Part shown: positions 2,289 through 14,375 of the stretch, one piece after another
Layout of the letters: each line of letters starts with the position of its first letter
How positions within the stretch are numbered: the first letter of the stretch is position 1
From: an uncultured Lysobacteraceae bacterium
GTDB lineage: Bacteria > Pseudomonadota > Gammaproteobacteria > Xanthomonadales > Xanthomonadaceae
DNA: 64,000 nucleotides
Direction of reading: 5' to 3'
Assembly (NCBI GenBank): GCA_902825775.1
Contig: CADECF010000009.1
Span: forward strand, 115,310 to 179,309
Translations under genes and position numbers: made by a program
Notes under the pieces: generated by a model
Seen by the model: only the letters and a program-made list of their open reading frames with translations
Database searches by the model: none
Told to the model about the DNA's origin: nothing

Positions 2289-2366
2289 GGGTGGTCCGGA
2301 GGTTTGGGCTGGGACGGCCAGTATAGATTGGGGCTGGCGCTCCGAAGCGACCCCTCCAAGGATCCT

Positions 2367-2464
2367 TAGGGCGGAACCGCCGCAGGCGATTCCGCCGATC
2401 GATCACCGGATCTTCGAGACATGCGGCGGAATTCGCTTCGCAGGTTCCGCCCTACGCTTGCTAC
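2367..2464. repeat. R9 palindromic element
   Basis: Inverted repeat: TAGGGCGGAACC at 2367 pairs with GGTTCCGCCCTA near 2444-2455. It closes with the same CTACGCTTGCTAC tail as R1, although the core differs. The tail supplies the stop codon of the gene at 2461. Confidence 0.75.
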
Positions 2465-2922
2465 TTGGCGGCCGGCGCAGAATCGTCCGATGGATGGTCC
2501 ACGGTATAAAGCCAGCGCCCATCGATCATTTTCTGCACATCGGTGAAACGCCCACGCTGGACGCTTTCGACCTTCGTCGCCTTGTCTACGGTACGAATCG
2601 AATAGGTTCCCCAAGCCGCCCTGGCATCGCCGACGGTCTCGTGTCCCATGTCCGTCAACTCGACATCCTCGATCGTCACGGTGCCTAGATAATGCGCAAA
2701 CCCATCGCGGATCGCCGCGCGTCCTTTTGCCATCGGCCCACCCGGAAACCAGATAATCGCGTCTTCCGCGTAACAGGCAGCCACAGCATCCGCATTTTCG
2801 GATTCGAGCGCGGTTACGAAGCATTCGCTGGCGGAAGGCGTCGTTTCGGTCGCCGTCGCATCATCAGCCGCCAACAGACCTGCGCACAACAATACGGCGC
2901 CACATCGTATGGATACCGGCAT
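2461..2922 (-). CDS. exported NTF2-like (SnoaL/DUF4440-type) protein
   Basis: 153 residues. The first ~24 residues (MPVSIRCGAVLLCAGLLA...ATA) resemble a signal peptide. The rest is a cone-shaped NTF2/SnoaL-like domain: SECFVTALESENADAVAACYAEDAIIWFPGG, then a RAAIRDGFAHYL helix and a final strand with DGRWLYTVDHPS. Members range from small-molecule isomerases to binding proteins; no function can be assigned. The start is ATG 2922, with AGGGG about 8 bases upstream. The TAG stop is formed by the end of repeat R9. Confidence 0.75.
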   Translation of the reverse strand: MPVSIRCGAVLLCAGLLAADDATATETTPSASECFVTALESENADAVAACYAEDAIIWFPGGPMAKGRAAIRDGFAHYLGTVTIEDVELTDMGHETVGDARAAWGTYSIRTVDKATKVESVQRGRFTDVQKMIDGRWLYTVDHPSDDSAPAAK

Positions 2923-3018
2923 GGTTCTGTCCCCTAGGTTGTGGTGGTTTATCGGAAGACGTTTTCATTCGGGAAAACGCCGGGCCGGACCTACAACGGC
3001 CAAGCGCCGAGCAATGCC

Positions 3019-3111
3019 GTAGCCCGGGTAAGGCCGAAGGCCGCACCCGGGTCCGCCGCAGCGGAGAGTTCGCACCCGGGTGCGCTTCGCTTACCCGGGC
3101 TACGCTTGCTA
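3019..3111. repeat. R1 palindromic element, copy 2
   Basis: Same opening (GTAGCCCGGGTAAGGCCGAA) and closing (TTACCCGGGCTACGCTTGCT) as copy 1. It runs directly into the RAYT remnant: the last bases of the repeat form the first codons of the remnant's open frame. Confidence 0.9.
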
Positions 3112-3310
3112 TTGGGAGCACACCATTGCCGATGAGGTAGACCTCCAGCGGCATGTCGATTACATCCACTTCAATCCGGTCAAGCATGGTTATGCGCGGC
3201 TTGCCTCTGAGTGGCCTTACAGCTCAATCCATCGATACATCAAAGCCGGTGATATGCCGGCTGATTGGGGTGACTCTTCTGATGAGGCTGCGGGAGGTGA
3301 AAGGTCGTGA
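3110..3310 (+). pseudogene. C-terminal remnant of a REP-associated tyrosine transposase (RAYT, Y1_Tnp family)
   Basis: About 66 codons ending at TGA 3308-3310. The residues read YWEHTI, then LQRHVDYIHFNPVKHGY and WPYSSIHRYIKAGDMPADWG. The HVDYIHFNPVKHG and WPYSSxHRY blocks are the hallmark C-terminus of RAYT proteins (IS200-related, single HUH nuclease, thought to mobilise REP palindromes). The HUH motif and catalytic tyrosine region are missing; the frame instead begins inside an R1 repeat, so the gene is truncated by or recombined with a REP. A short stem (GTTGGGGTTTCACCCCAAC) follows at about 3313-3331, a usual neighbour of such genes. Confidence 0.85.
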
Positions 3311-3360
3311 TGTTGGGGTTTCACCCCAACCTACCGCGCTCTTCCACTCTAATTTACGAC

Positions 3361-4227
3361 CTAATCATATTCAGTCTTATGTTGATAAGCGCAAAAAAAC
3401 TCTGATTCACTCAACGCAGCGTAAGCAGCAATCTGCCAACTGTTCTTCACGGGCAGAAGTCCTGCGGGATTTCGGCGGGTATGTGCCTCTTCAGTCAAGT
3501 GATTGGCAACAGACACAGCTCCGCCTGATGCGAAAAGCCTGTTCATACGAAATCCAATATCCGCGATCAGCCTGCCCGTATGAGCAATAAATAGCTTATT
3601 CAGTCCAAGAACCCTGAAATGCTCTTTAACCCTTCCCTGCTTTATTTCTGACCAATGTGCGGGTGGGTCGGCTGCGAAGTTCACGCTAGGAGGATTGCTT
3701 TCAATCACCGTGGCCTTTAGCCACACGCCATCTTCGACATTGTCGAAATAGGGATGAAGAAGCTGAAGGTCTGCGCTAGCGGCCTGTATAGTCGATTTGA
3801 TCTTGTTACAGTCGCTACAGCAGGGAACTAGATTTACGGGAGTGACAGCGAAGGCAGGGTGAGAATCTTTAGGAAGATAGTGATCAAGCGTAGACACGGT
3901 GCGCTGATAACACGATGGACATATGCCAAATGGCGCGCTTACCAGCAGCGCATCGTAGAATGTGGCTCTTAAATACGAGCCTTTGCGAACAAAACTCCCG
4001 TTGTAGAGCTTTTTCATCTCTGCTAGAGACATAAAACCAATCTCAGCCGCAGCAGGAATCAAGTAGAGCTGCTCCGCGACCGCTCTTTGCAGGTAAGCTA
4101 TTTCGGCCGCCTCAATCTCTGGTACTGAATTCCAAAGACGCTGAACGGTGTCAGCATCTTTCAAAATTTGCACCGCTGCATCCAGAACTGGACGCACCGC
4201 GAACCCAGGAAGTCCCACTGGGCGCAT
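3361..4227 (-). CDS. HNH endonuclease, PtuB-like (Septu-type defence operon, third gene)
   Basis: 288 residues from ATG 4227, which lies just after the upstream stop (TAATATG). A longer form from TTG 4260 would overlap the ATPase by 32 bases. I prefer the ATG because the resulting MRPV start resembles PtuB/retron-associated HNH proteins. The nuclease core is central: CPSC at 103-106, then LDHYLPK with H116, N132 in PVNLV, and CCSDCNKIK at 136-144. This gives two CxxC zinc pairs around a His-Asn nuclease centre. The N-terminal ~100 residues are helical, and the C-terminal third has no recognised domain. As the effector it would cut DNA or RNA under control of the ATPase encoded upstream. G+C is visibly lower than in the flanking genes. 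Confidence 0.85.
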   Translation of the reverse strand: MRPVGLPGFAVRPVLDAAVQILKDADTVQRLWNSVPEIEAAEIAYLQRAVAEQLYLIPAAAEIGFMSLAEMKKLYNGSFVRKGSYLRATFYDALLVSAPFGICPSCYQRTVSTLDHYLPKDSHPAFAVTPVNLVPCCSDCNKIKSTIQAASADLQLLHPYFDNVEDGVWLKATVIESNPPSVNFAADPPAHWSEIKQGRVKEHFRVLGLNKLFIAHTGRLIADIGFRMNRLFASGGAVSVANHLTEEAHTRRNPAGLLPVKNSWQIAAYAALSESEFFCAYQHKTEYD

Positions 4228-4228
4228 A

Positions 4229-5368
4229 TTATTCTGTGGCTTCGTTCTGCTGTAACTCAAAACCCAAACCTCGAGCTATCGCGCGAGCTTCGGCTCCCAA
4301 CTGACCGTTGAACTGTCGCAATACAGCTGCATAATCGCCATCTGAGGCTGTCACTGCATCTGCAATCAATTTGTGAAATCCAGACGCTGTAACCTCAAGC
4401 CCAAAAACCTCACGCGTTAGAGAACCTACATTTTCACCAAAAGTCTCTAACTGAGGTCGCTCGGCAACTGCAACCGAGCCAGATCGCCGCAATACCCATA
4501 CACACGAACGTGGAACTTCTTGCAGCACAACGGGCGAATGCGTGGCGATGACAGCCACTCCGTTACGCGCGGTCAGTAGGTTAGAGAGCGAGCGCACCAA
4601 CGCGGACAGCAATGGGGGGTGGAGATGACCCTCTGGCTCATCTATTAGGACGATAGTCCTTTCATCCACAAGTTCTACCAAACGGGTAATAGTTAGAAGC
4701 ACCACTGCGTGCCCAGAACTAAGTTTTCCAAAGAACTCTTCACTCTTCTCGCGCCATTCTCCCTCACCCAGGTCTGCCAGTGACGTAACTTGCGTTTCCT
4801 CAAACAATGGGTCGCTTTCAAGTGCCGTAATAGCATCAATCCAACGTCGTCTGCGAAGGCCCACCCTGCAGGCCTCAAAACTCTTTCTGAAAATTCGGGC
4901 ACCGCTCTTAGTGGTCTGGCCACTTCGGTCTGTGACCGCCCCCTCACCGATTAAACTAACCTGGGCAGACCGAAATGAGGATTGCGAGGGGCGCGGAAGC
5001 TCGAAATCATCGAAAGCGCTGAATGAGACATACACGAGCCCAGCAAATGAACCTCCAACATCTTCATTAGTAATTAGCGTTCCAACTGGATTCGTAGTGT
5101 TCCCGGAATTCAGAATTGACCCAGCGAACGCTTGCAAGAATCTTGTTTTACCCGCCCCGTTCCTTCCAATCAGAACATGCACATTTGTCGGAGGGGCCGA
5201 TTCCGGGATCACATGAAAATCAATAGTTGCCCCGTATGCATCTTGTCGATCGCCATTAAACGTAAACGAGAATTCAAACTCAGTTAACTGCGAATCTCCG
5301 TGTGCGAGCCTATTGAACTTGCTCAACACAGTAGAACGATTGATGAACCTGAGCAGAGATTCTCGCAT
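4229..5368 (-). CDS. AAA/ABC-type ATPase, PtuA-like (Septu-type defence operon, second gene)
   Basis: 379 residues. Walker A is GRNGAGKT at 68-75, a signature-like KLSSGH lies at about 215-220, Walker B with its catalytic acid is TIVLIDEPEGHLHP at 238-251, and the switch histidine is in IATHSP at about 274-279. This is the architecture of SMC/ABC-like ATPases found in overcoming-lysogeny-defect nucleases and in PtuA, but there is no fused TOPRIM domain. The HNH gene takes that place. The start is ATG 5368, sharing one base with the upstream TGA (TGATG). A strong AGGAGG lies just before it, and GTG 5371 is an alternative. The tight overlaps with both neighbours indicate one coupled operon. Confidence 0.87.
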   Translation of the reverse strand: MRESLLRFINRSTVLSKFNRLAHGDSQLTEFEFSFTFNGDRQDAYGATIDFHVIPESAPPTNVHVLIGRNGAGKTRFLQAFAGSILNSGNTTNPVGTLITNEDVGGSFAGLVYVSFSAFDDFELPRPSQSSFRSAQVSLIGEGAVTDRSGQTTKSGARIFRKSFEACRVGLRRRRWIDAITALESDPLFEETQVTSLADLGEGEWREKSEEFFGKLSSGHAVVLLTITRLVELVDERTIVLIDEPEGHLHPPLLSALVRSLSNLLTARNGVAVIATHSPVVLQEVPRSCVWVLRRSGSVAVAERPQLETFGENVGSLTREVFGLEVTASGFHKLIADAVTASDGDYAAVLRQFNGQLGAEARAIARGLGFELQQNEATE

Positions 5369-5766
5369 CACCTCCTCTTCCTGGTTCTGAAAAAAATATT
5401 CAGATCGTAGGCGCAGTCTCTTATAGCAACAAGAATCTTTACGCCGATCTCTCCAGGAAGAGATCGAAGAGTTTCATAATATGTTTCATCCTGTCCCAGC
5501 GAGAAGAAATCGCTATTGAGATCCGAGAAAGATTGTGGGAGTTCTGGAGCGCGGTGACCGGGAGAGATTCTTTCAGCCGGCAGCAATCCTGCTTGACCAA
5601 GCTTTACATTCCCAATATCAAACTTCTGCCCTTCTTCATCAAACACAACAAGATAGAACTGAGTTCTAAATTTAGCCCAGTCGTCCCAGCGATCCTCGAT
5701 CAGATACGCAACCCAAGCGCCCAGAATTGGCGCGGTCCTTGAAGCGTTGACTATCTTGAACTCCAT
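5368..5766 (-). CDS. unknown 132-residue protein, first gene of the defence-like operon
   Basis: No family recognised. Visible features: N-terminal EFKIVNASRTAPILGAWVAY, an aromatic-rich WDDWAKFRTQFYLVVFDEEG strand region, DIGNVKLGQAG, FFSLGQDETYYETL near residue 90, and a basic C-terminal end (FFRTRKRR). It has no signal peptide, membrane segment or cysteine cluster, so it is probably a soluble mixed alpha/beta protein. It starts at ATG 5766 with AGGAA about 14 bases upstream, only 27 bases after the icmF stop, and ends overlapping the ATPase start. Translation coupling to the ATPase suggests a sensor, adaptor or regulator of the ATPase/HNH pair; that role is inference. Confidence 0.75.
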   Translation of the reverse strand: MEFKIVNASRTAPILGAWVAYLIEDRWDDWAKFRTQFYLVVFDEEGQKFDIGNVKLGQAGLLPAERISPGHRAPELPQSFSDLNSDFFSLGQDETYYETLRSLPGEIGVKILVAIRDCAYDLNIFFRTRKRR

Positions 5767-5793
5767 GTGGGGGCTACCCCTTCCTTTCGTTGA

Positions 5794-8700
5794 TCACATG
5801 TTCCTTCGATATTCTCCGCCCACATCATATAAAGCATGACTGATCTGCCCCAACGAATGCGTCTTAACCGCCTCCATCAACGCCGAAAACACGTTCTGGC
5901 GGTTGCGGGCGGTGTTCTGCAGGTAAGCCAGGCCGTGGCCGTCGTGGATGAAGGTGGTTTCTTCGTCGGCGTCGGCCAGGTGGGCGTGGGAGGTTTCGCC
6001 TTTCGGGGCTAGCGCGTTGCGCGAGGCCTGCCAGTTGGCGACGTTTTCGATCTGCTGGCCCTTCTCGCCTTCCGTGCTGCGGATCAGTTCGATCTCGGTG
6101 GCGATCTCGCCGCCGTGTTCCTTGGGCAGGAAGGTGTTGACGCCGACCAGGGGCAGCGAGCCGTCGTGCTTCTTGTGCTCGTAGTACATCGACTCTTCCT
6201 GGATCTTGCCGCGCTGGTACATGGTGTCCATGGCGCCGAGCACGCCGCCGCGCTCGCTGATGGCTTCGAATTCCTTGTACACGGCTTCTTCGACGATGTC
6301 GGTGAGGTACTCGACCGCGAAACTGCCCTGCCACGGGTTCTCGTTGAAATTCAGGCCCAGCTCTTTGTTGATGATCATCTGGATCGCCACCGCGCGGCGC
6401 ACGCTTTCCTCGGTGGGCGTGGTGATGGCTTCGTCGTAGGCGTTGGTGTGCAGGCTGTTGCAGTTGTCGAACAACGCATACAACGCCTGCAGCGTGGTGC
6501 GGATGTCGTTGAACTGGATTTCCTGCGCGTGCAGCGACCGGCCGCTGGTCTGGATGTGGTACTTCATCATCTGGCTGCGCGCATCCGCGCCGTAGCGCTC
6601 GCGCATGGCGCGGGCCCAGATACGGCGGGCGACGCGGCCGATGACGGTGTATTCCGGGTCCATGCCGTTGCTGAAGAAGAACGACAGGTTGGGCGCGAAG
6701 TCGTCGATCTTCATGCCGCGCGCCAGGTAGTACTCGACGATGGTGAAGCCGTTGCTGAGCGTGAACGCCAGCTGCGAGATCGGGTTCGCGCCGGCTTCGG
6801 CGATGTGGTAGCCGGAGATGCTGACCGAATAGAAGTTGCGCACCTTCTGGTCGACGAAGTACTGCTGGATGTCGCCCATCATGCGCAGCGCGAATTCGGT
6901 GCTGAAGATGCAGGTGTTCTGCGCCTGATCTTCCTTCAGGATGTCGGCCTGCACCGTGCCGCGCACGCTGGCCAGCGTTTCGGCCTTGATGCGGGCGTAA
7001 GTGTCCGCATCGACGAGCTGATCGCCGGACAAACCGAGCAGGCCCAATCCCAAACCATCGTTGGTCGGCGGCAATTCGCCGTGGTACTGCGGGCGCTGGC
7101 GGCCTTCGAAGAGTTTCGCGATCTTCTTCTCGGCATCGGCCCAGCGCTTCGGATCGGCCTTCAGGTATTTCTCCACCTGCTGGTCGACGGCGGTGTTCAT
7201 GAACATCGCCAGGATGATCGGCGCCGGGCCGTTGATGGTCATCGACACCGACGTGGTCGGCGCGCACAGGTCGAAGCCGGAGTACAGCTTCTTCATGTCG
7301 TCCAGCGTGGGGATGTTGACGCCGGAGTTGCCGATCTTGCCGTAGATGTCCGGGCGCGGCGCCGGGTCTTCGCCGTACAGCGTGACGCTGTCGAAGGCGG
7401 TGGACAGGCGCGCGGCCGGCTGGCCGACGCTGAGGTAGTGGAAGCGACGGTTGGTGCGCTCGGGTGTGCCTTCGCCGGCGAACATGCGGATGGGGTCTTC
7501 GCCGGCGCGGCGGTACGGGTAGACGCCGCCGGTGTAGGGATAGCTGCCGGGCAGGTTTTCTTTCTGCAGGAACACCAGCAGTTCGCCCCAGCTTTTGTAG
7601 GTGGGCGCGGCGATCTTCGGGATCTTCTGGTGGCTGAGCGATTCGCGGTAGTTTTCGACGCGGATTTTTTTGCCGCGGACTTCGTATTCGGTCACTTCGT
7701 CGGTGATCGACTTCAGGCGTTGCGGCCATTCGCGCAGGAGCTTGAGCGATTCGGAAGTCAGCGATTGGATGGCGTCGTTGTAGCGTTGGCGCAGGGTCAG
7801 CAACGAGCGGTCGGGCGCTTGAGCCCCTCTCCCCTCGGGAGAGGGGTTGGGGTGAGGGTTCGGAGCACCAGCGGCTCCGCTGGCCGCCGAACCCTCACCC
7901 TCGGTCCCTCTCACGGAGGGAGAGGGATGCAAAGCATCGACGCTGTAGAGATCGAGCTGCTTGGGCAGCTTGTCGTCGCCGATGTCCTGCAGCGATTGCC
8001 AATAACTCTGAGCCCGATCGGCCGCCTCAGCCTGCTTGTCGATGCCGGCATTGATCGCCCTGCCCTGTTCGGCGATTTCGGCCAGGTAGCGGACGCGGGC
8101 GCCGGGGATGAGCACGGTGGCGCGCGGTTCCTTGAGGGTGGTGTCGATGTGTGGGTGCCAATCGACGCGCGCTTGGCTCTTTGTGGGAGCGGCTTCAACC
8201 GCGAGCTTTTGATCTTGGAGTCCGCCATGGGCCGAAGAGCTCGCGGCTGAAGCCGCTCCCACAACAGCAGTACCTGCGGCAGCGAAGCCCAGATGCAGCT
8301 TCTCGCGCAGCAGACGGCACAGGTTGGCGAACATCCAGCTGATGCCGGGGTCGTTGAACTGGCTGGCGATGGTGGGATAGACCGGGACGTCTTCGTCCTT
8401 GGTCTTGAAGGCGACGCGGTTGCGCTTCCACTGTTTGCGGATGTCGCGCAGCGCGTCTTCGGCGCCGCGCTTGTCGTACTTGTTCAGCACGATGAGTTCG
8501 GCGTAATCGATCATGTCGATCTTTTCGAGCTGGCTGGCCGCGCCGTAGTCGCTGGTCATCACGTACATCGGGAAATCGACCAGATCGACGATTTCCGAAT
8601 CGGATTGGCCGATGCCGGCGGTCTCGACGATCACCAGGTCGTAGCCCAGGCCTTTCAGGAACGCGATGCAATCCTTCAGCACCGCGTTCGTCGCCACGTT

Positions 8701-9576
8701 CTGCCGGCGCGTGGCCATCGAACGCATGTAGACGCGGTGGCTGCGCAGCGAGTTCATGCGGATGCGGTCGCCCAGCAGCGCGCCGCCGGTACGGCGGCGG
8801 GTGGGGTCGACCGAGATCACGGCGATGCGCATCTGCGGGAAATTGGCGAGGAAGCGGTTCAACAATTCGTCGGTGACCGACGATTTGCCGGCGCCGCCGG
8901 TGCCGGTGATGCCGACGACAGGGGTCTTGCCCGCGGCCAACTGCCATTGCTTGCGCAGCTTGGAGAGTTCGCTTTCGGAATAAATGCCGTCTTCGAGTGC
9001 CGACAGCACTTTACCGATCGCGATTTCGTCCTGCAGGGCGGACCCCGATCCGCCTTCTGCACGCGAGAGGGGATTTTCGATGTCTGGCGGAAGGCGGGTC
9101 AGGACCCGCCCTACGCTATCGCGGGATTTCGACGCGCGCGCGACCACATCCTCGATCATTTCCACCAAACCCATCTTCATGCCGTCGTTGGGGTGGTAGA
9201 TGCGTTCGACGCCGTAGTCTTCGAGTTCGCGGATCTCTTCGGGGGTGATCGTGCCGCCGCCGCCGCCGAATACGCGGATGTGCGGGGCGCCGCGCTCTTT
9301 GAGCATGTCGACCATGTACTTGAAGTACTCGACGTGGCCGCCCTGATAGCTGGACAGCGCGATGGCATCGGCGTCTTCCTGCAGCGCGGCGCGGACCACG
9401 TCTTCCACCGAGCGGTTGTGGCCCAGGTGGATGACTTCGGCGCCCTGGCCCTGGATCAGGCGGCGCATGATGTTGATCGCGGCGTCGTGGCCGTCGAACA
9501 GGCTGGCGGCGGTGACGAAGCGCAGCGGCGCGGTGTCGGCCTGGGTCTCGGGGATGCTCTGGGCAGGCGTGCTCAT
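5794..9576 (-). CDS. icmF: fused isobutyryl-CoA mutase (IcmF)
   Basis: 1260 residues, adenosylcobalamin-dependent interconversion of isobutyryl- and n-butyryl-CoA. Order: B12-binding domain ~17-150 (DGHDAAI holds the DxH cobalamin ligand motif), MeaI-type G-protein chaperone ~215-435 (GTGGAGKSS Walker A; NKYD base motif), linker, TIM-barrel mutase ~640 onward with a helical C-terminus. The substrate loop reads YPYRR...[10 protein letters not shown], with Phe where methylmalonyl-CoA mutases have Tyr, which supports IcmF over methylmalonyl-CoA mutase. Known IcmF proteins are about 1,090 residues. The surplus lies largely in three linker insertions encoded by palindromic repeats (residues ~155-180, 438-466, 551-585). 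It fits the valine/leucine catabolic theme of genes at 15781-18195. Start ATG 9576. No cobalamin riboswitch recognised upstream. Confidence 0.92.
7824..7926. repeat. R5 palindrome inside icmF
   Basis: CCCTCTCCCCTCGGGAGAGG and a second arm ending in GGAGGGAGAGGG enclose GGGTGAGGGTTCGG / CCGAACCCTCACCC. This is the same family as 31255-31380 and 52259-52312. It is in frame and encodes residues ~551-585 of IcmF ([17 protein letters not shown]... and [11 protein letters not shown]). Confidence 0.85.
8181..8264. repeat. R2 palindrome inside icmF
   Basis: TTGTGGGAGCGGCTTCAACC and GGCTGAAGCCGCTCCCACAA form the ends. The family is the same as the intergenic copies at 10138-10315, 21670-21770 and 25508-25597. 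In frame it encodes about 28 residues ([16 protein letters not shown]...) in the linker after the G domain. Confidence 0.9.
9037..9114. repeat. R8 palindrome inside icmF
   Basis: GGCGGACCCCGATCCGCC and GGCGGGTCAGGACCCGCCCTAC form two stems. It encodes residues ~155-180 of IcmF, between the B12 and G domains. No second copy is seen in this window, but the arrangement is that of the other palindromes. Confidence 0.7.
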
Positions 9577-10318: not shown

Positions 10319-12388
10319 CTAGAGATCCAAAGCGTTGCAGAGCAGCCGACGGCGTTCTTCCAATCCCGCTTCCGAACGGTTGATATCGAAACTCACCGGC
10401 GCGCTGCGCTTGCCCAGGATGCGGGCGATGGTGGCTTCCAGCGTGGCGCGGTCGTCGTCGAAACCGCCGTGCGCGGTCGCGTTGGCGCTATCGGGCGACG
10501 GCGTGGGCGTAGGCGATTGCACCCAGCCCAGACGGCCGTCGCGGATCAGTTTCTGCACGCGTTCGTAGCCGTAGGCCTGGTCGGCCGGCGTCTTGGCTTC
10601 GATGAAGCGCGCCATCCCCGCCAACGGCGTGCCCTGGCTCAGCCGGCGATCGATCCAGCTGCGCGCCTGCGCTTCGAACGCATGCGCGATCAGGTACAAA
10701 AGCGACTTGTGGTAGATGCCGGCGCAGTGGTCGTCGTTCTCGGCCTTGTCGGTCAGCGTGAACAGGCACGCGCGGTCGACGGCTTTGGATTCGATCGCCG
10801 GCACGTACGCCATCAGGAACATATCCATCGTGACGGCCGGCGCCCACAGGTTGACGCTTTCGATCTTGCCGCCCAGTCCCGACATGCCGTGCGCCGGGCC
10901 GCCGATGATCCGGCCCGGCCGCGTCAGCAATTGCAGCAACGGCGCCATCAGAACGCTGCCGCCGCTATGCGCGGCGATGTGCAATTCCACCGACGGATCT
11001 TCCTGCTGCCATTCGTGCAATAGCCGCGCCACCTGCGCGGCGCCGCCGGCTTCCTGCACGCCGGTTTCGGTGCGGACGACCGCGGTGGTGGCGAGGATCG
11101 CGTTCTCTTTCATCTCGTCCCACAGCGCCTTGCCGCCGAGGGCGCGCGCGAGCGGCTCGAGCGTGTCGTCGAGTCGATCCAACAGAAGATCCTTGGCTTT
11201 GTCGAGCAGGCCTTCGCTGCGCGGCTTGGCGACGTCGCGCAGGATGTTGCCCAGCGTGCTCCAGAAATCGGTCTTCCAGACGAAGCACAGCGGATAGATT
11301 TCCTCTTTCAGCATCGCTTCGCGGTAATCGGCGACGCGCTGGATCGCGGCCTGTTCCGGGACGAGGCCGCCGTGCGCGTACAGCAGCACGCGTTTTTTCT
11401 TCCAATCGCGCATGGTTTCGCGCATGTCCTTGCGGATGATGTTGCGCGCGTCGTCGACGGTGGTGCCGAAACGGCCGCTGTCGCGCAGTTGGCCGTTGTT
11501 GCCCAGGCTGATCACGTGCGGGCGCAGATCCGCCTGCGCGTAACCGGTGGATTGCCGCGCCAACGCGGAATTGCTGACCGCTGCGGCCTGCGCGCGGCGC
11601 AGGTGCACCGGTACCGCCAACCGCGCGACCCAGACGTCGGTGCCGCGCTGCAGCCATTCGTCGTAACTGACGTGGCCAAAGCCGCCTCGGCCCCAATCCT
11701 TGCCCCAGGAATTCTGGAACCAGAAGCCGTCGCTGTCGTAGCCGACGATGGCGAAGGCGTGGAAGCCGATCTCTTCCTGTTCGCTCCACGCCATCGCGCC
11801 GCTCTTGGGCGGATCCAGCCAACCTTCGTGCGCGCCGCACGAGGCGTACAGCACGCCGACTTCGGCGAAGGCCGCGTGCATCGCCACCAGATCCTTGTGG
11901 TTGACGCGCAGATAGGCGCCGAGCGGATTGCGCAACGCATCGCGGGCGCGCGCCTCGGTGTACGGCTCCATCCGTAGGCCGGGCTTGTACGGCCAGATGC
12001 GTTCGGAGCACACGCCGTGGCGGTGCCAGCCCTTCATCGCGCCGCGGCAGCTGGAACCGGAATAGCTCTCGCCGTGCCATTCGTCGTAGCGCCGCGCCAT
12101 GTCGTAGAACATGCGCGTGCTGACCAGGGTGCGATTGGCGCCGGAACCACGGGTGCGCAGCAGGGTGTGCGCGACGGTGGCCAGACCGAAGGCGGTGCAG
12201 GCGCCCTCCTCGCCCTGGTCCAGCACCGGCACGTTCAGGCGCAGGTGGCGCGACAGCGGCACCGATTCGGGCACGTCGACCAGGGTCGGTTCGAACATGC
12301 GGTCGCGGAAGTCGGCGGTGTCCGGGCGGGCGTCGAACAGACGGGCGTTGGCGGCGGGGGTGCGGGGGGATTTTTTGCGGGTGGCCAT
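10319..12388 (-). CDS. papain-like (C1) cysteine protease fused to an alpha/beta-hydrolase-like domain
   Basis: 689 residues. The N-terminal half is a C1 peptidase: oxyanion Q58 and nucleophile C64 in LDQGEEGACTAFG, catalytic H210 in GFHAFAIVGYD, and N226 in FQNSWGKDWG. There is no signal peptide, and the peptidase core begins within 60 residues, so there is little room for a classical inhibitory prodomain. From ~330 a second domain shows VLLYAHGGLV, and a lipase-type elbow HSGGS with S475, as in alpha/beta hydrolases. The combination may be a toxin-like or intracellular processing enzyme; the substrate is unknown. Start ATG 12388. The stop abuts the R2 cluster. The gene stands alone. Confidence 0.82.
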   Translation of the reverse strand: MATRKKSPRTPAANARLFDARPDTADFRDRMFEPTLVDVPESVPLSRHLRLNVPVLDQGEEGACTAFGLATVAHTLLRTRGSGANRTLVSTRMFYDMARRYDEWHGESYSGSSCRGAMKGWHRHGVCSERIWPYKPGLRMEPYTEARARDALRNPLGAYLRVNHKDLVAMHAAFAEVGVLYASCGAHEGWLDPPKSGAMAWSEQEEIGFHAFAIVGYDSDGFWFQNSWGKDWGRGGFGHVSYDEWLQRGTDVWVARLAVPVHLRRAQAAAVSNSALARQSTGYAQADLRPHVISLGNNGQLRDSGRFGTTVDDARNIIRKDMRETMRDWKKKRVLLYAHGGLVPEQAAIQRVADYREAMLKEEIYPLCFVWKTDFWSTLGNILRDVAKPRSEGLLDKAKDLLLDRLDDTLEPLARALGGKALWDEMKENAILATTAVVRTETGVQEAGGAAQVARLLHEWQQEDPSVELHIAAHSGGSVLMAPLLQLLTRPGRIIGGPAHGMSGLGGKIESVNLWAPAVTMDMFLMAYVPAIESKAVDRACLFTLTDKAENDDHCAGIYHKSLLYLIAHAFEAQARSWIDRRLSQGTPLAGMARFIEAKTPADQAYGYERVQKLIRDGRLGWVQSPTPTPSPDSANATAHGGFDDDRATLEATIARILGKRSAPVSFDINRSEAGLEERRRLLCNALDL

Positions 12389-12800
12389 CCTGGTTTCCTC
12401 TTGGGCGGATTCTCAGCTCCGCTTTTGTTTGGACCTTAACGCTTTAGTTTTTAAAGCCGTCATTCCCGCGAAGGCGGGACTGTGGAGGCAGGGATGCCGG
12501 AACGAACATTTGCGGAGCAAATGGCCCGAAGGGCAGGCCGCAGGAGCGGCCTGTCATCCAGTGACTTTCGCTCCTCCAGACAGCGACGACGCGACCTGCC
12601 ATCCCGCGTGCCCTCACCCAACCCTCTCCCGCGAGCGGAAAGGGCTTCACCTGCAAGCGGGCTTAGGCCTCCGCGTCCAAGCCATCGTACGAAACCCCCG
12701 TCTCTCAAACCGCGACTGGCTTCGCGCTAAGCTTGTGGCCGCGCTCGGCGCGCCCGATACTCCACCGTATCGGCTGCATCACGGACTTGGGGAAGCCCGA
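12389..12800. other. 412-base gene-free stretch holding R4 and R5 repeats
   Basis: Between divergent genes. 12456-12577 is an R4 element (GTCATTCCCGCGAAGGCGGGA at the left, CATCCAGTGACTTT near the right end), and 12611-12647 is a partial R5 element. The remainder shows no credible coding potential; short frames here only read through the repeats. Promoters for the two flanking genes should lie here, but I could not place them. Confidence 0.7.
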
Positions 12801-14375
12801 ATGACGCGCGTCAAACGCATCCTGGCCTGGGGCGCTTTCGCGCTTGTCCTGATGATGATCAGCGGGATTTTCCTGGCCGATCATCTGACCCCGCCCGCTA
12901 CCGGCAAACCCAGCACGGCGCTGCCGCTGCGGGCCACGCAAACCGAACTCGACCGCGAACTGGTGCCGCTGCTGGCGCGCCACCCCGGCCAGACCGGGGC
13001 GCTGATGCTGCCCGAGGGCCTGGATGCGTTCGCCGCACGTGCGATGTCCGCCCGGCGCGCCGGCCGCAGCCTGGACCTGCAGTACTACATCTGGCACGAC
13101 GACCTCACCGGCCGCCTGCTCGGCCGCGAGGCCTACCTGGCGGCGCAGCGCGGCGTGCGCGTGCGCATGCTGATCGACGACATGAACGCCGAGGGCCTGG
13201 ACTCCAAGCTACTCGCGCTCGACCAGCACCCGAACATCGAGATCCGCGTCTACAACCCGTTCCGCAACCGCAAAGGGCTGTGGCGATTGCTAGAACTGGC
13301 GCAACGCGTATTCAGCGTCAACCACCGCATGCACAACAAGGCCTGGATCGCCGATGGCCGCGTCGCCGTCGTCGGCGGGCGCAATATCGGCGAAGAATAT
13401 TTCGATGCCGCGGTGGAAGTGAATTTCCGCGACCTGGATCTGCTGCTGTTCGGACCGGCGGTGGGCGAAGCCAGCGAGATCTTCGACCGGTACTGGAACA
13501 GCGAAGCCGCGGTGCCGCTGGCCGCTTTGGCGCGCAAATATCCGCGCGAGCTGGCATCGCTGATCGTCGACGCGCGCCGCGAGGCCGCCAGCGCGCCTGC
13601 GCAACGTTATCTGAGCAGGGTCGAGGCCTCCAGCAAGGTGCGCCACTACTTGTCGCAGACGCTGAAGCCGTTCTGGAGCGATCGCATCCACGTGGTCGCC
13701 GATCCGCCGCTGAAATGGAAGGACGACGACCGCAAGGACTGGCTATCCACGCGGATCAACGAGGAGCTGGGCGATGCGCGCCGCAAGGCCATGGTGATTT
13801 CGCCCTACTTCGTGCCCGGGCCCGGCGTGACCGCCGACTTCATCCAGCTGGCGCGGCACGGCGTCGACATCGGTGTGATCACCAACTCGTTGGCGGCGAA
13901 CGACGTGTTCGCCGTGCACGGCGGCTACAGCAAGTATCGCGGGGACCTGCTGCGCGGCGGCGTTCGCCTCTACGAAATACGCGCGCAGGCGCGCACCGGC
14001 GAAACCGGCGGCGCCGGCAGCGGCAGCATGTTCGGCAGCAGCGGCGCCAGTCTGCACACCAAGGCGTTCGTGGTGGACGACGAGCGCGGCTTCGTCGGCT
14101 CGTTCAATCTCGATCCGCGTTCGATCGACCTCAACACCGAGATGGGCGTGATCTTCGAAGACGCCGGACTGGCGGTCGCGCTGCGCAACGAATACCTGCG
14201 CCTGGCTTCGCCGGAACTGAGCTACTGGGTATTCCTCAACGGCGAAGGCGACCTGCGCTGGCTAGACCGCGCGCACAAGCCGCCGCTGCTGCTGGATCGC
14301 GAGCCGGACACCACCGCCGGCAAGCGCGCGCTGACGCGCGCGATCGGCTGGCTGCCGATCGAATCGCAATTGTGA
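12801..14375 (+). CDS. phospholipase D-like / cardiolipin synthase-family protein
   Basis: 524 residues. An N-terminal membrane anchor (residues 7-26, hydrophobic) precedes two PLD domains. HKD motif 1 is H178-N-K180 with D185 (NHRMHNKAWIAD). HKD motif 2 is H419-T-K421 with D426 (SLHTKAFVVDD), followed by GSFNLDPRS. These are the catalytic residues of phosphatidyltransferases and phospholipases D. The family includes cardiolipin synthases and the YmdC/ClsC group, which this resembles. An open frame extends upstream, but ATG 12801 has GGGGA 8 bases before it and gives the expected anchor. The next gene begins at or across its stop, so the two are likely co-translated. Confidence 0.88.
   Translation: MTRVKRILAWGAFALVLMMISGIFLADHLTPPATGKPSTALPLRATQTELDRELVPLLARHPGQTGALMLPEGLDAFAARAMSARRAGRSLDLQYYIWHDDLTGRLLGREAYLAAQRGVRVRMLIDDMNAEGLDSKLLALDQHPNIEIRVYNPFRNRKGLWRLLELAQRVFSVNHRMHNKAWIADGRVAVVGGRNIGEEYFDAAVEVNFRDLDLLLFGPAVGEASEIFDRYWNSEAAVPLAALARKYPRELASLIVDARREAASAPAQRYLSRVEASSKVRHYLSQTLKPFWSDRIHVVADPPLKWKDDDRKDWLSTRINEELGDARRKAMVISPYFVPGPGVTADFIQLARHGVDIGVITNSLAANDVFAVHGGYSKYRGDLLRGGVRLYEIRAQARTGETGGAGSGSMFGSSGASLHTKAFVVDDERGFVGSFNLDPRSIDLNTEMGVIFEDAGLAVALRNEYLRLASPELSYWVFLNGEGDLRWLDRAHKPPLLLDREPDTTAGKRALTRAIGWLPIESQL

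Follow-up and report, generated by a model that had tools for sequence, protein, structure and literature searches.

Does the operon at positions 5766-3361 of the 64,000-nucleotide stretch analysed here (the window) encode a three-component defence system, or a two-component one that merely appears to have three genes? ORF calling gives three closely spaced minus-strand ORFs of 132, 380 and 288 aa. A preliminary description made from the sequence alone regarded them as a Septu-like operon, in which a leading gene of its own preceded a PtuA-like ATPase and a PtuB-like HNH nuclease. As detailed below, the operon is most likely a two-component system of the Septu type, ATPase plus HNH nuclease, whose ATPase gene has recently been split by a frame change. 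That the leading ORF is a piece of the ATPase gene, encoding its N-terminal domain, in a Septu-family operon of the PDC-M01 type, is given a probability of about 0.88.

Organization of the operon

The coordinates and the tight packing of the three ORFs given in the preliminary description hold. The features are as follows.

5368..5766, minus strand: ORF1 (132 aa), N-terminal domain of a PDC-M01A/PtuA-type ATPase, from profile matches and fusion in 91 of 92 relatives
4229..5371, minus strand: ORF2 (380 aa), remainder of the ATPase, with Walker A, an LSSGH signature-like motif and Walker B
3361..4227, minus strand: ORF3 (288 aa), HNH nuclease of PDC-M01B/PtuB type, from PADLOC, conserved residues and predicted fold
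5366..5396, minus strand: ORF1/ORF2 junction (T run, 18 bases, TGATG), from sequence, pattern and colinearity with the family profile
3341..5795, no strand: low-G+C cassette holding the three ORFs, from the icmF end to the stretch in common with sister genome G315, delimited by blastn against three sister genomes and by composition
5794..9576, minus strand: icmF-like gene, native neighbour, abutting the slot with its 3′ end; an ORF matched in four of four genomes of the genus
3163..3340, plus strand: RAYT-like remnant, named by eye, at the far cassette edge; 83% identical stretch in G315

The names icmF and RAYT are those of the preliminary description. In TGATG, the TGA of ORF1 overlaps the ATG of ORF2, for which the GTG at 5371 is an alternative start. 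A single base separates the ORF2 stop from the ATG of ORF3, which ends at 3361 and starts either at this ATG (4227, 288 aa) or at a TTG at 4260 (299 aa).

One ATPase gene in two frames

Comparison with profiles places ORF1 and ORF2 end to end on the same models. On the PADLOC model PDLC04235 (PDC-M01A, 510 positions), ORF1 matches positions 1-123 (E 2.3e-34) and ORF2 positions 127-503 (E 1e-143), and together they cover the whole profile, N-domain included. On the PADLOC PtuA model PDLC00282 (520 positions), they match 2-121 and 128-512, ORF2 scoring 421 bits, and on PHROG 8066 (522 positions) 1-119 and 128-513. The division is thus the same in three profiles, two from PADLOC and one from PHROG, with lengths of 510-522. 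Pfam assigns ORF2 to AAA_21 and gives no match for ORF1. With the NCBIfam retron PtuA model, ORF2 stays far under the cut-off (56 of 500 bits). ORF2 carries the Walker A motif GRNGAGKT and the Walker B motif VLIDEPEGHLHPP, at positions that had been given correctly to within a few residues, and the Walker core residues are invariant in six aligned ATPases. These motifs and the PADLOC matches agree with the earlier assignment of a PtuA-like ATPase. Among solved structures, the nearest relatives of ORF2 are retron I-A effectors; the N-domain of ORF1 had no match at the thresholds used.

Relatives were sought by protein search in genomes of the order, class and phylum, in one genome_contigs scan, and among plasmids and phages. 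Counting the window's own genome each time, the order gave 9 matching genomes out of 398, the class 2 out of 369 and the phylum 4 out of 398; the genome_contigs scan gave 94 relatives, the plasmids 46 records and the phages 20. Five of these plasmid records and two of the phage records were examined at the level of the locus. The set of 92 loci used below is made of 80 of the 94 genome_contigs relatives, 8 from the order search, 3 plasmids and phage lambda, and contains the duplicates L005/L022, L004/L028, L008/L091 and probably L013/L027.

In 91 of the 92 loci, the N-domain and the ATPase form a single open frame, and the remaining one (L042) is cut by the end of its contig; a separate N-domain gene occurs in none of the 92. 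Four further matches from the class and phylum searches are also unsplit, with open frames of 515-580. An HNH gene lies 3′ of the ATPase in 90 of the 92 loci according to a position filter. L085 has one that the filter missed, and the contig of L038, where no HNH gene was counted, ends 188 bases past the ATPase.

These data bear directly on the idea that the leading protein stands on its own and that the system truly has three components. The three ORFs do stand in one operon in the window genome, and two Streptomyces plasmid records also list a separate leading ORF. However, ORF1 corresponds to the front of the ATPase profile, a part that is fused in 91 relatives and separate in none, and the three-component system, now very unlikely, was rejected. 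The search of the three proteins against profiles did return defence models (PDC-M01 and PtuA), as had been anticipated, but it did not bear out ORF1 as a component of its own. Likewise, the homologues of the 132-aa protein, expected earlier to accompany the ATPase/HNH pair as a leading gene, are always found ahead of it in the 92 loci, yet within the same gene. It is because a frame change has split the ATPase that the operon looks like three genes: the apparent third component resolves to a split ATPase.

Frame breaks are also seen in other members of the family. In the Streptomyces NBC_00455 plasmid (L221, 2071-3565), the ATPase changes frame at position 150 of the profile, about 25-30 positions beyond the place of the change in the window. 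The record of the Streptomyces NBC_01023 plasmid shows a separate leading ORF too, in a layout that, from its listing, resembles that of NBC_00455. In the Streptomyces Sge12 plasmid (L220), the ATPase frame breaks at profile position 449, and another break lies in the HNH gene.

Origin and consequences of the frame change

At the junction stand seven consecutive T (5390-5396), which ORF1 reads as ATT TTT TTC; 18 bases and then TGATG follow. The two frames were compared with a family profile built from 85 of the 92 loci (L042, L022, L028, L091, L027, L075 and L077 being dropped). The ORF1 frame corresponds to positions 4-126, and the ORF2 frame, taken from 11 codons upstream of the GTG, to positions 118-512. 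The two frames overlap on the profile and no position is lost; the switch from one to the other falls in the linker, at or next to the T run.

Three origins of this change may be envisaged. In the first, the split is an error of sequencing or assembly, and the true genome has one unbroken ATPase gene. The seven-T run is the usual kind of site for such errors, and the layout with three ORFs is unique among the 92 loci. As a control, 38 of the 43 native ORFs of the window were given for comparison with sister genomes. Homologues were present there for 35, of which 30 are colinear, 4 diverge at their N-terminal end alone and 1 is a wrong-frame ORF spanning two genes, so that no clear frame break was found among the 35. 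This argues against an error, with the reservation that the window has six A/T runs of seven or more, and the control therefore says little on homopolymers inside genes. Overall, an error is considered improbable.

In the second model, the split would be a working one. Translation would either restart at TGATG or slip by -1 on T TTT TTC, yielding a free N-domain with the ATPase, or some full-length protein. Behind this model stand the rules of slippery heptamers and of translational coupling: the heptamer is in the phase of ORF1, and the TGATG overlap is preceded by G-rich, Shine-Dalgarno-like bases. A start-type codon is also present at the corresponding place in 43 of the 92 relatives. Furthermore, ORF1 does not appear to be relaxed, judging from its mean identity to 14 outgroups, 0.482 versus 0.421 for the unsplit copy of Methylobacterium bullatum. 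The identity of ORF1 to the M. bullatum copy itself is low (0.411, versus a mean of 0.52 with an sd of 0.06 for 136 background pairs of like ATPase identity); in view of the outgroup figures, this value reflects M. bullatum more than the window. On the other hand, none of the 92 relatives is split here, and a homopolymer of at least seven is found at the corresponding place in none of them, one of at least six in 2. No RNA structure was detected at the junction beyond that of shuffled sequences (z 0.78; 158 of 200 shuffles gave an equal or better fold), and the broken copies found elsewhere break at different places. A working split is therefore held to be rather doubtful in our subjective estimate, although it is less so than an error. 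More tentatively still, and with little confidence, it may be imagined that, in this lineage, a fused ATPase of the Septu type became a sensor made of two polypeptides, with the N-domain as a detachable regulatory subunit of a three-polypeptide Septu. The split site lends itself to asking whether the N-domain works in trans.

The unique layout, the lack of a conserved run and the differing breaks elsewhere favour a third origin, a recent and ordinary frame change, over a conserved device. Recent slippage in the T run is thus the most likely source of the change, and it would probably leave this copy of the ATPase weakened or inactive. For the two together, recent slippage and a weakened or inactive copy, our subjective odds are about even.

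The nuclease and comparison with known systems

ORF3 matches the PDC-M01B model PDLC04264 over positions 1-278 of 282 (E 8.2e-84), and the best 25 of the 45 PADLOC models found for it are all PDC-M01B. In Pfam, its only match is to HNH, under the cut-off. The residues C103, C106, H116, N132, C137 and C140, which make up the catalytic and zinc sites, are invariant in 39 aligned HNH proteins, and the predicted fold has as its best matches the nuclease chains of the Septu and retron I-A complexes. The PtuB-like HNH nuclease of the preliminary description is upheld by both lines of evidence, and the positions given there for its motifs hold to within a few residues.

Comparisons with the literature were made with the available passages of PMC13096335, PMC11555353, PMC11811056 and PMC11680222. 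The closest likeness is to PDC-M01: both proteins match its models over nearly their full length, the gene order is that of the relatives, and the PDC-M01B protein adjoins the ATPase, one base downstream of ORF2. The difference is that the ATPase, a single frame in 91 of 92 relatives, consists of two ORFs in the window. PADLOC lists PDC-M01 as a candidate, and the passages just cited were not found to contain a test of it.

With Septu, the operon shares a PtuA-type ATPase with Walker A and B, in ORF2, and a PtuB-type HNH nuclease, recognized by its residues and predicted fold. It differs from it in that the ATPase is split, and in the layout of the protein. In ORF2, the Walker A lysine stands at residue 75, with the 132-aa ORF1 ahead, whereas that of PtuA of Septu EcB88 is K43 (PMC13096335). 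The ATPase of the window thus has an N-domain of about 125 residues before its core, for which EcB88 PtuA would have no room, and it departs from the canonical PtuA layout with the core at the N-terminus.

A further relative is the lambda Ea59/Ea31 pair (L015, 4194-5084 and 2620-4197). The ATPases are 42% identical over 393 columns, the N-domain matches at 38% in the same frame, and a homologous HNH gene comes next (25% identity, E 1e-27). In contrast to that of the window, the lambda ATPase is unsplit, and the pair is phage-borne and beside int. No defence role for Ea59/Ea31 was found in the titles and abstract openings searched. The comparison of sequences shows an N-domain that is conserved in the Septu-like PDC-M01/Ea59 ATPases and absent from canonical PtuA. 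PDC-M01 and the Ea59/Ea31-type pair are already known, and the operon joins that kind.

Use of the pair by a retron I-A, or by another system with a reverse transcriptase, may be considered, since the nearest solved relatives of both ORF2 and ORF3 are retron I-A effectors. In the PtuA/PtuB modules of retron I-A (Ec78/Eco7), a reverse transcriptase and a retron RNA accompany the pair. However, the three ORFs take up the cassette (3341-5795) and do not include a reverse transcriptase, as had been noticed at the outset, and no match up to E 1 was obtained in 2300-6700 with Rfam, a database that may lack some retron RNAs. Such a use is thus extremely improbable.

A two-component Septu-type system accordingly remains the preferred description of the operon. 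A defence reading of it is well supported by homology to the Septu-type pair and by genomic context, two grounds on which the earlier suggestion of a defence-like setting also stands. The operon would have entered the genome horizontally and landed in the slot directly behind icmF; a frame change in the linker following the N-domain would have split the ATPase gene into two ORFs. By analogy with characterised PtuAB systems, the ATPase assembly would hold the HNH nuclease, and upon infection the nuclease would cut nucleic acid, thereby stopping the phage. The target in PtuAB systems is host tRNA for retron-Eco7 and Septu EcB88, and DNA has been reported for another Septu.

Probable horizontal gain and the slot behind icmF

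The operon is set apart by its composition. In 500-base windows, G+C is 45-54% within the operon versus 58-68% around it, as the preliminary description had noted by hand, and at third codon positions the three ORFs have a GC of 0.46-0.47 versus 0.85 for icmF, a comparison limited to icmF since the other native ORFs had been chosen for high third-position GC. In a tree of the ORF2-equivalent parts, the window stands beside M. bullatum (support 1.0) and apart from Luteimonas, whose copy comes from the window's own family. The similarity of the window to the three other genomes of the genus extends up to 5796, the last codon of icmF, where they diverge. The far edge (3163-3340) recurs at the corresponding place in G315 (83% identity by blastn), which sets the cassette at 3341-5795; it is not common to G359 or G398. 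Composition, tree and exchanged cassette together support a horizontal acquisition of the operon, in a cargo slot that immediately follows icmF, in keeping with the horizontally acquired island first proposed. The RAYT remnant claimed beside it fared less well: its 67-aa translation has no Pfam match at 0.001. Nearby, at 3008-3110, lies a palindromic repeat, REP-like by its layout, with dozens of matches across the genomes of the genus.

The cargo of the slot differs in the three sister genomes: a helicase with DUF2290 in G315 (PDLC03002, 3.3e-200; 1.9e-21), a NACHT protein (Pfam, 2.4e-11) with PDC-S71 (2e-125) in G359, and a Hachiman-like HamB helicase (7.8e-52) in G398. Of nine sister-slot proteins compared with PADLOC, four gave no match at 0.001. 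A survey was then extended to the best-matching 42 of 106 matching genomes (119 searched), of which 40 were read for ORFs, G355 and G160 being left out because their contig ends are too near. The slot loci are thus 3341-5795 of the window, L116, L117 and L118, and L165, L180-L209 and L211-L219. Slot G+C is at most 0.58 in 16 of these 40 further family genomes and above this in 24, with icmF at 0.61-0.66.

PADLOC was applied to 30 slot ORFs from 22 genomes. They belong to a list of 49 that had been drawn from 164 for low G+C or for lying in one of four named genomes, so that the match rate is not that of all slots. At E ≤1e-25, 13 of the 30 matched (10 genomes), and at 1e-5, 18 (13 genomes). 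Native genes of the window, which are not a matched control, gave 0 of 10 and 1 of 10 at these thresholds. The models matched at E ≤1e-25 are NsnA/B, DzbA/B, PDC-M01A, PDC-M34A, PDC-S33, PDC-S60 and a type II methyltransferase. In G1169, an unsplit and distant PDC-M01 occupies the same slot behind icmF. The slot thus looks like a hotspot of exchangeable, mostly defence-like cargo in the family. No paper joining the name icmF to defence hotspots or islands was found in the literature, and a survey of Stenotrophomonas names other genes as flanks in its available passages. The icmF slot, whose cargo is mostly defence-like and differs among the four genomes of the genus, as it often does in the wider family, is a place to seek new systems.

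In 7 of 46 genomes (G359, G1140, G1163, G363, G225, G1158 and G1176; loci L117 for G359, L165 for G1140, and L197, L198, L199, L205 and L217), the region downstream of icmF contains additional partial copies that reach its 3′ end, a hint that cargo may enter by recombination in icmF. Among the control genes, the ORF at 12111-14372 of the window has a DrmC match (E 1e-13); it is probably an ordinary phospholipase D-family enzyme.
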